A stretch of 64,000 nucleotides of DNA, from contig NZ_CP133016.1 in NCBI RefSeq assembly GCF_030866745.1, forward strand, positions 2,466,001 to 2,530,000, in the 5' to 3' direction. Every line of letters begins with the position of its first letter. The stretch's first letter is position 1. This DNA is from Sphingomonas flavescens. Its GTDB lineage: Bacteria; Pseudomonadota; Alphaproteobacteria; Sphingomonadales; Sphingomonadaceae. Under the pieces are notes generated by a model that was not told where the DNA came from, did no database searches, and was given only the letters and a program-made list of their open reading frames with translations. Position numbers and translations under genes: made by a program. Shown piece after piece: positions 28,191-32,349 of this stretch.

Positions 28191-30473
<2,283 letters not shown>

Positions 30474-30482
30474 GCATTGATT

Positions 30483-30516
30483 GGCGCTCGGGCTGGCTCA
30501 GGCCGGTTCGAGCGCC
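30483..30516. terminator. Stem-loop between convergent katG and oxyR
   Basis: GGCGCTCG (30483-30490) and CGAGCGCC (30509-30516) form a perfect 8-pair stem with an 18-base loop. It overlaps the last codons and stop of oxyR and lies 9 bases after katG, so it could serve both genes. No T tract is visible on either strand. Confidence 0.4.
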
Positions 30517-31448
30517 GACACATCGACCCGTCGCATTTCAGGCGCGACGTCCCCCACAATCTGGCGAAGTGACGCCGCGAGCATCTGGAATTCGCTCTCG
30601 CGCGGGCTCGAGCGGCGCCAGATCAACGCGATCCGACGAAACGAATGCGCGGATTCCAGTGGTTTTGCATCCACGCCGGTTCCGGAAAGAATGCCGGCCT
30701 CGATCGCCATTCCCGGAATGAAGGTCAGGCCCAACCCATTGTCGACCATCTGCACCAAAGTGTGCAGCGACGTTCCCATCATCGCCGCCTGAGCGCGCAA
30801 ATCCGGCCGATTGCAGGCCGAAAGCGCGTGGTCTTTCAAACAGTGTCCATCCTCCAGCAGCAGAAGGCGATTCTCGTCGATGGTCGCGGCATCGATGACG
30901 TCTGCCGTCGGCGCTTCCCCGCGCGGGTAGGCGACGAACAACGGATCTTCGAACAACGCGACGCTGTCGATCTCCCCGCAAGGGAAGGGCAGGGCGAGCA
31001 GGACGCAATCGAGCTGACCGCGATGCAGCGCCTCACACGCGGCGCCGCTAGTCTCCTCGCGTAGGTAGAGTTTCAGCTCCGGCCACTGCTCGCGGAGGCG
31101 TGGCAGCATCGTTGGCAGGAGGAAGGGAGCGATGGTGGGAATGACCCCCATCCGTAGCTCACCGTGAAGAGGGCGTCCCTGCGCGCGCGCCAGTTCCGCC
31201 AACTCTTCGGTCTCACGGAGGACCTTGATCGCCTTGTCCGATATCTTCTCGCCGAGCGACGTGAAGCGCACAACGCGTCGCGTCCGCTCGACCAGCGTCA
31301 CGCCAAGCAATGTCTCAAGCTCGCGAATGCCTGCCGACAGGGTCGACTGCGTTACGAAGCAGGCATCGGCAGCCTTGCCGAAGTGACCGAGCCGCCGCAG
31401 CGCGACGAGATACTGAAGCTGCTTGATGGTGGGCAGGTGGACGATCAT
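30498..31448 (-). CDS. oxyR: Hydrogen peroxide-sensing LysR regulator OxyR
   Basis: 316 aa. An N-terminal winged helix-turn-helix (AADACFVTQSTLSAGIRELE, about 26-45) is followed by the LysR effector domain. The redox pair is present as GHCLKDHALSAC: Cys203 and Cys212, the same nine-residue spacing as Cys199/Cys208 of E. coli OxyR, which form a disulfide on oxidation. It should activate katG, which faces it. It is divergent from a small structured locus at 31.46-31.61 kb. Confidence 0.95.
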   Translation of the reverse strand: MIVHLPTIKQLQYLVALRRLGHFGKAADACFVTQSTLSAGIRELETLLGVTLVERTRRVVRFTSLGEKISDKAIKVLRETEELAELARAQGRPLHGELRMGVIPTIAPFLLPTMLPRLREQWPELKLYLREETSGAACEALHRGQLDCVLLALPFPCGEIDSVALFEDPLFVAYPRGEAPTADVIDAATIDENRLLLLEDGHCLKDHALSACNRPDLRAQAAMMGTSLHTLVQMVDNGLGLTFIPGMAIEAGILSGTGVDAKPLESAHSFRRIALIWRRSSPRESEFQMLAASLRQIVGDVAPEMRRVDVSALEPA

Positions 31449-31481
31449 TAATCGAAAAATCCAATCACACGGAGGGTGGTA

Positions 31482-31577
31482 ATGGACTTGAACGATTTAC
31501 GCGAGTCACCACATCCCATGTGCCTCCTCGGAGGCGCGCTGGCCGCCTTGCCCCCTGAGAAGGCCAGCGTTCAATAG
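31482..31577 (+). CDS. Possible 31-residue small protein divergent from oxyR
   Basis: ATG at 31482 is preceded by GGAGGG at an acceptable distance (5 bases), the best Shine-Dalgarno in the neighbourhood. The product begins MDLNDLRESPHPMCLLGG, contains one Cys and a short hydrophobic stretch, and stops with TAG at the base of a strong hairpin. It may be a translated small protein, a leader peptide or a chance frame in a structured RNA. Confidence 0.35.
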   Translation: MDLNDLRESPHPMCLLGGALAALPPEKASVQ

Positions 31578-31605
31578 GGGCGGGCACTCTCCCCAGGCCC
31601 GCCCC
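31577..31605. terminator. Strong GC hairpin between oxyR-divergent locus and TauE gene
   Basis: GGGGCGGGC and GCCCGCCCC form a perfect 9-pair stem with an 11-base loop. On the plus strand TAAAATCCTTT follows; on the minus strand, where it lies 9 bases past the TauE gene stop, TATTG follows. It is a good terminator candidate and could work for either strand. Confidence 0.65.
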
Positions 31606-31614
31606 TAAAATCCT

Positions 31615-32349
31615 TTAGCCAAAAGCACGGTAGAGGCCGAACAGGCTGATTATCGTCAGCAGCGCACCGACAAAGGTCAGCAACCGATCGGGATCGACCC
31701 GCTTGGCGATGGGGGCTCCAAAGGGAGCTGCGACCACGCCGCCGATCAGCAATCCCAGCGTCGCGGTGGTGAAGGCCGCCCAGCCAAGCGTCGCCAGGAA
31801 CGTCGCGCTGATTGTCACGGTCAGAAAGAATTCGGCGGTGTTGACGGTCCCGATCGTCTTGCGCGGGTTGCTTCCCTGGACGAGCAAGTTGGACGTGACG
31901 ATCCCGCCCCACCCGCCGCCGCCCGCGGCGTCGAGGAATCCCCCGATCAGGCCCAGTGGCGAGATAACCCGCGGCCGCCGCTCGGTATGGCGATGCATGA
32001 TCCCGCGGTAGAAAAGATAGATGCCAAGGATCGCGAGATAGCCGAGCACGAATGGTTTGGCGGTTCCGGCCGGTAAGGCAGTCAGCACATAGGCACCGAG
32101 GACACCCCCGATCACGCCCGGGATGACGATCTTGAAGAAAAGCCACCAGTCGACGTTGCGATGCGCGACGTGGCTGATCCCGGAAACCGCCGTAGTAAAG
32201 GTTTCCGCGGTATGCACGCCCGCGGACGCTGCTGCTGGCGGCATCCCCATGCTGATCAGCAGGGTGCTTGAAATCTGGCCGTACGCCATGCCCAGCGCGC
32301 CATCAACGAGCTGCGCGGCAAAGCCGATCAGGATGAATGGAAGGAGCAC
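31615..32349 (-). CDS. Sulfite exporter TauE/SafE family membrane protein
   Basis: 244 aa with about eight membrane segments in two repeats (IGFAAQLVDGALGMAYG and IGGFLDAAGGGGWGGI are the paired family signatures). TauE/SafE proteins export sulfite, sulfoacetate or other organosulfur anions. Start assigned to GTG at 32349; the next gene in the opposite direction is cysE, so a sulfur theme is possible but not proven. There is no ribosome binding site of note. Confidence 0.85.
   Translation of the reverse strand: MLLPFILIGFAAQLVDGALGMAYGQISSTLLISMGMPPAAASAGVHTAETFTTAVSGISHVAHRNVDWWLFFKIVIPGVIGGVLGAYVLTALPAGTAKPFVLGYLAILGIYLFYRGIMHRHTERRPRVISPLGLIGGFLDAAGGGGWGGIVTSNLLVQGSNPRKTIGTVNTAEFFLTVTISATFLATLGWAAFTTATLGLLIGGVVAAPFGAPIAKRVDPDRLLTFVGALLTIISLFGLYRAFG

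Follow-up and report, generated by a model that had tools for sequence, protein, structure and literature searches.

Among the closest described counterparts of the locus analyzed here is OxyS, the peroxide-linked RNA of enterobacteria (Rfam family RF00035). The birth of a small RNA (sRNA) from ahpC mRNA, as considered below, would parallel the origin reported for a peroxide-responding RNA. Within the window, the 64,000-nucleotide stretch of Sphingomonas flavescens DNA under analysis, the gap between oxyR and a tauE gene resembles OxyS in that it adjoins oxyR and would be transcribed away from it, with a predicted RNA of about 117 nt (versus about 110) and three hairpins. It differs in that its parent gene would be ahpC, in a sphingomonad, that its promoter appears eroded and that it does not match the OxyS model. 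Indeed, the Rfam OxyS model gave no match up to an E-value of 10 in 31430-31640, and no Rfam family reached its threshold in this stretch, either in a search of the whole window or in one at a low threshold. Two alphaproteobacterial hairpin sRNAs gave full-length but sub-threshold matches, namely, ar14 (RF02344), against the window at 19.8 bits (E 0.04-0.06), and CcsR1 (RF02791), against the unit of genome G065 at 20.6 bits (E 0.004 in a short stretch, 0.51 in a larger search). Since these scores lie far under the gathering scores of 58.8 and 65.3, respectively, and the CCUCCUCCC loops are absent here, membership in either family was rejected. Among the matches listed from the open-access literature, none described a small RNA next to oxyR in a sphingomonad.

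A second counterpart is the ahpC(-ahpD) unit that lies divergent from oxyR in sphingomonads, both ends of which are homologous to the window gap, whereas its coding DNA is lost in the window. The resemblance to OxyS thus has a concrete basis, because a peroxidase unit divergent from oxyR would have kept both of its ends. The initial annotation had likened the gap to OxyS in position and shape, and this likeness stands, with an evolutionary reason behind it, except that it does not extend to the Rfam model. The divergent position and the homology to a divergent ahpC promoter would fit such an RNA, and three hairpins do fold, the length of about 117 nt being an estimate. The idea seems right in kind as to origin, any function being putative.

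Homology of the gap to ahpC-ahpD units

The genes around the gap are as follows:

30498..31448, minus strand: oxyR, LysR-type regulator (Pfam HTH_1 and LysR_substrate)
31615..32349, minus strand: tauE/safE (Pfam TauE, 125.8 bits)
28245..30473, plus strand: katG, catalase-peroxidase, convergent with oxyR (NCBIfam cat_per_HPI, 1048.7 bits)

As initially annotated, oxyR and tauE bound the gap, which spans 31449-31614 (166 nt). The best NCBIfam model for the regulator was OxyR PRK11151 (233 bits, below its cut-off of 329), and its translation contains C203 and C212, which sit where a redox pair would be expected, given the role of the corresponding cysteines in E. coli OxyR.

When 61 genomes were searched with the DNA of the gap, 20 gave matches, the window genome among them. 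The best relative is G035, where it matches as two pieces about 600 nt apart: window 31402-31510 is 82% identical over 109 nt to a region that is followed there by ahpC, and window 31530-31606 is 78% identical to the hairpins behind ahpC. The order in G035 is leftward oxyR, rightward ahpC, three hairpins and rightward ahpD. The ahpC gene (181 aa, Pfam AhpC-TSA) lies between the two matching pieces, and ahpD, behind the hairpins, carries a CMD domain. The three hairpins directly follow the ahpC stop, and TTTTT comes after the last of them, a stem of the GGGGCGGGC...GCCCGCCCC type; this stem recurs in the window but leads into TAAAATCC instead. No close AhpC was found in the window genome (2.66 Mb, 99.95% complete), where the best match showed 31% identity (20.4 bits) and none of the 8 AhpC/TSA-family and 2 CMD-family matches lay in the gap. 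Because both ends are homologous and the genome lacks a close ahpC, we read the gap as two joined ends of such a unit, that is, as a scar left by loss of the ahpC-ahpD peroxidase operon that was once divergent from oxyR (probability about 0.88). The gap can accordingly be divided into the following features:

31449..31468, no strand assigned: near-palindrome adjoining oxyR, similar in G035, G084 and other relatives; a probable OxyR site
31478..31483, plus strand: putative former ahpC -10 element, GGTAAT (TATAAT in G035 and G084)
31482..31577, plus strand: 31-codon open reading frame (ORF), judged spurious
31488..31497, plus strand: TTGAACGATT, motif shared with the promoter region of divergent ahpC genes
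31498..31521, plus strand: putative junction zone of the lost ahpC (and ahpD) coding DNA, from alignment with the G035 ends and G084, the breakpoint being placed within it approximately
31522..31535, plus strand: hairpin 1, from the ahpC 3' region
31537..31569, plus strand: hairpin 2, with CCCCC in its loop
31577..31605, plus strand: hairpin 3, putative former ahpC terminator stem, GGGGCGGGC...GCCCGCCCC
31606..31613, plus strand: tract after hairpin 3, TAAAATCC (TTTTT in G035, G030, G033 and G091)

Under the scar reading, loss of the ahpC and ahpD coding DNA would have brought the start and end of the unit together. The left half would be the shared oxyR/ahpC regulatory region, kept at least partly because oxyR needs it, and the right half would be the hairpin-terminator region formerly behind ahpC, now left behind tauE, whose transcription its hairpins may in addition keep apart from oxyR. 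For this right half, the fallback first proposed, an untranslated spacer with a terminator, is nearly correct. That tauE now adjoins the hairpins would follow from the loss of ahpD as well; tauE adjoins ahpD in G005 (locus L018). Intermediate states exist, as judged from G014, where ahpC is kept with tauE directly behind, and from G005, where tauE, ahpD and ahpC stand in a row, while G084 shows the same promoter-hairpins-tauE arrangement as the window. At L115 and other ahpC-bearing loci, strong hairpins with a terminator lie between ahpC and ahpD, which would point to weaker expression of ahpD than of ahpC. The KatG of G035 is only 66% identical to that of the window, though its OxyR is 85% identical (G084 KatG, 87%), and the katG beside oxyR in G035 may have been replaced or be foreign.

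Promoter, hairpins and strand

The promoter initially proposed, TTGATG/CATTAA, falls within the first oxyR codons, and homology to the ahpC units places the likely promoter further right. A consensus scan of 31000-32000 returned no promoter-like and no terminator-like site. At the homologous position the window reads GGTAATGGACTTGAACGATTT versus TATAATGGACTTGAACGATTT in G035, so that the first two consensus bases of the -10 element are missing. At least 5 of the 6 consensus bases of a -10 hexamer are matched at 16 of 25 loci with ahpC, at 3 of the five ahpC-less remnants known at the time of this comparison and at 12 of 37 others. As 9 of the 25 ahpC-bearing loci likewise have no hexamer of 5/6 matches, -10 quality fails to separate the classes, and GGTAAT alone is no proof of a dead promoter. 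The sequence TTGAACG, just behind the -10 element, is found at 19 of 25 loci with ahpC and 7 of 42 without.

The GGAGGG and ATG reported for the 31-codon ORF are indeed present (31471-31484; 33 codons if read from a GTG), and they are what would speak for a small protein. A coding role is otherwise unsupported: the ATG overlaps the -10 element, upstream of the expected start site, the frame after MxLND and the stop are not conserved in G084 or G035 (by eye), and the 33-codon form matched no Pfam or NCBIfam family. A small protein is thus extremely improbable and was rejected.

The three perfect stems lie exactly where they had been annotated. The first, drawn with a 2-nt loop, is instead given 7 pairs and a 4-nt loop by RNAfold, and the TAAAATCCTTT pointed out behind the third is no U-tract. 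The plus strand of 31470-31619 folds at -71.6 kcal/mol (z -4.49), with none of 200 shuffles equally stable; the minus strand of 31449-31598 gave a z of -1.13, and shorter minus-strand pieces over the hairpins gave -2.9 to -3.1. Ten hairpin elements could be aligned, and their RNAalifold consensus retains hairpins 2 and 3, with double changes in 5 of 19 consensus pairs, and lacks hairpin 1. The stem of hairpin 3 recurs in G035 and in most of the ten. The loop of hairpin 2 may pair with the 5' arm of hairpin 3, a weak suggestion from 13 elements picked by hand (shuffled P 0.03 with strict pairing, 0.05 with wobble). Two further ideas were rejected. A dispersed repeat is excluded by the exact outer-stem pattern, which the 2.66-Mb genome contains only once, and the C-run of the terminator loop is unsupported as a selected pairing site (p 0.70), CCCC loops being found in 3 of the 18 perfect-stem terminators that follow ahpC versus 9 of 75 others across 80 named loci, and in 0 of 9 terminator-like sites of the window.

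It could be argued that the hairpins were kept for the minus strand, as a tauE terminator or as an insulator before oxyR. Stem 3 lies only 9 nt behind the tauE stop, and the last hairpin of G008 and G092 lies next to the end of a minus-strand gene judged TetR-like by eye. If only energy is considered, the minus strand of the window element is the lower (-56.7 versus -53.8), and minus-strand z-scores are substantial in the window (-4.0, versus -5.3 for plus), G035 (-4.4 versus -5.7), G008 (-3.7 versus -4.9) and G092 (-3.7 versus -6.8). However, the plus strand scores better in all eight elements compared, narrowly in G086 (-2.6 versus -2.2) and widely in G084 (-5.3 versus -0.6) and G065 (-4.5 versus -1.9), and the minus strand of the window has no U-tract. 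Such a role is not required either, since the tauE match starts 59-71 nt from oxyR in 10 of 42 loci lacking ahpC and a scan found no perfect-stem hairpin at any of these 10. It also leaves the kept promoter motif unexplained, and we consider it somewhat improbable as the reason for which the hairpins persist.

Gain and loss of ahpC across the genus

A search for OxyR in 71 genomes of the genus gave a match in 70, and 67 readable oxyR loci were counted, omitting G005, G026 and G027 (distant matches only) and G082 (no match). With ahpC called at >50% identity in about 1.5-2.0 kb read per locus (391 nt for G083), the gene lies divergent from oxyR at 25 of the 67 loci and is absent there at 42. 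Its presence or absence requires at least 19 changes on an OxyR tree of 66 sequences in which many forks are weak, G010 having been left out because its oxyR is broken in two frames. At this locus (L016), oxyR and tauE both appear fragmented across reading frames, possibly because of an assembly error. Whole-genome searches of eight ahpC-less genomes besides that of the window, several of them incomplete, returned nothing above 41% identity or 69.5 bits.

Both the promoter motif and the hairpins are kept at 6 of the 42 ahpC-less loci, namely, the window, G084, G065, G086, G008 and G092, which form three groups of two; this state requires 4 changes on the OxyR tree. Hairpins are found downstream at 6 of 7 motif-bearing loci versus 1 of 35 without the motif (Fisher 9e-6, with sister species counted singly and hence not independent). 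A perfect-stem scan of all 42 loci that ignores the motif gives 5 of 7, as it misses a wobble pair in G086, which was scored by RNAfold. A mixture of recent and old deletions would account for this association more simply. At the seventh motif locus, G088 (L158), the ahpC start MLTVGDKIPD runs into ahpD (YAKDLRLN...), which by its translation is an internal deletion that fused the two genes, the presumed old promoter still having a gene to serve. In the one motif-less case, G089 (L146), hairpins of the ahpC type lie beside oxyR with their U-tract intact; downstream of them lies an apparent toxin-antitoxin pair (translations, by eye).

The window and G084 have a similar junction, which favours descent from a single deletion. 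The OxyR protein tree groups G084 with the ahpC-bearing G035, although holding the window genome (G000) and G084 together was not rejected (p-AU 0.44 for rpsA and 0.16 for oxyR). The order of the three species was not settled by rpoB, valS and rpsA, rpoB having no match in G084 and valS only a 96-residue piece there.

Candidate RNAs from former ahpC transcripts

Firing of the old promoter would yield a non-coding transcript estimated at about 117 nt (about 31490-31606), which would start from the former ahpC promoter and run into the three hairpins that once followed ahpC. Such an RNA could be a functional, OxyR-induced, OxyS-like sRNA of about 115 nt that selection has kept in the window species. 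In its favor, motif and hairpins co-occur among the ahpC-less loci, as counted above, and hairpins 2 and 3 fold in both the window and G084 (z -5.3 for each element) despite differences at 0.55-0.64 of four-fold sites in oxyR, tauE and katG. The two genomes, however, are identical at only 42 of 83 hairpin positions and 17 of 25 positions of the operator block, only one of two folded segments of G084 forms hairpin 1, and the terminator U-tract is lost in both genomes. Because the -10 element and the U-tract are eroded, the RNA of the window is probably weak or dying, with little defined product to be expected, and a functional sRNA in this species is unlikely.

Sister pairs elsewhere conserve both ends over the spacer. 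Between G065 and G086 the operator-promoter block is identical at 46 of 46 positions, the spacer at 19 of 32 and the hairpins at 62 of 71, and their first 49 nt are identical while 0.41 of four-fold oxyR sites differ; 18 other within-class pairs, chosen by hand, show 2 to 18 mismatches in these 49 nt. Between G008 and G092 the corresponding values are 28 of 29 (motif block), 26 of 73 and 70 of 84. In the first 240 nt upstream of oxyR in these two (L159 and L160), the spacer is almost unalignable and there is no ahpC. Such patterns resemble what would be expected if the promoter and the hairpins were constrained and the spacer free, and G008/G092 is the clearest candidate in the set for a free-standing RNA. 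On the other side, the ahpC-bearing G014 shows only 4 differences from each of G065 and G086 over these 49 nt, so that clade has a slowly evolving promoter in any case, and its conservation may be a clade habit. The retention of base pairs between G065 and G086 (25 of 27 kept with 7 changes) is not significant in a conditional test (P 0.12), and recombination of a short promoter stretch is a possible source of the identity.

We propose only tentatively, as an idea less probable than not, that where ahpC was lost its mRNA has repeatedly become an independent sRNA of about 110-190 nt, under OxyR control and kept by selection, with G065/G086 and G008/G092 as the strongest cases and the window as a weakened one. 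The survey shows very frequent gain and loss of the peroxidase gene next to oxyR in this group. For the open question of how small RNAs originate, the remnants offer a natural test: the genus contains loci with ahpC, loci without it that keep both ends and loci without it that keep nothing, and with three states in one genus the step from peroxidase mRNA to sRNA can be tested by comparing transcripts. If the proposal is true, these would be convergent OxyS-like RNAs caught at different ages in one sphingomonad genus.
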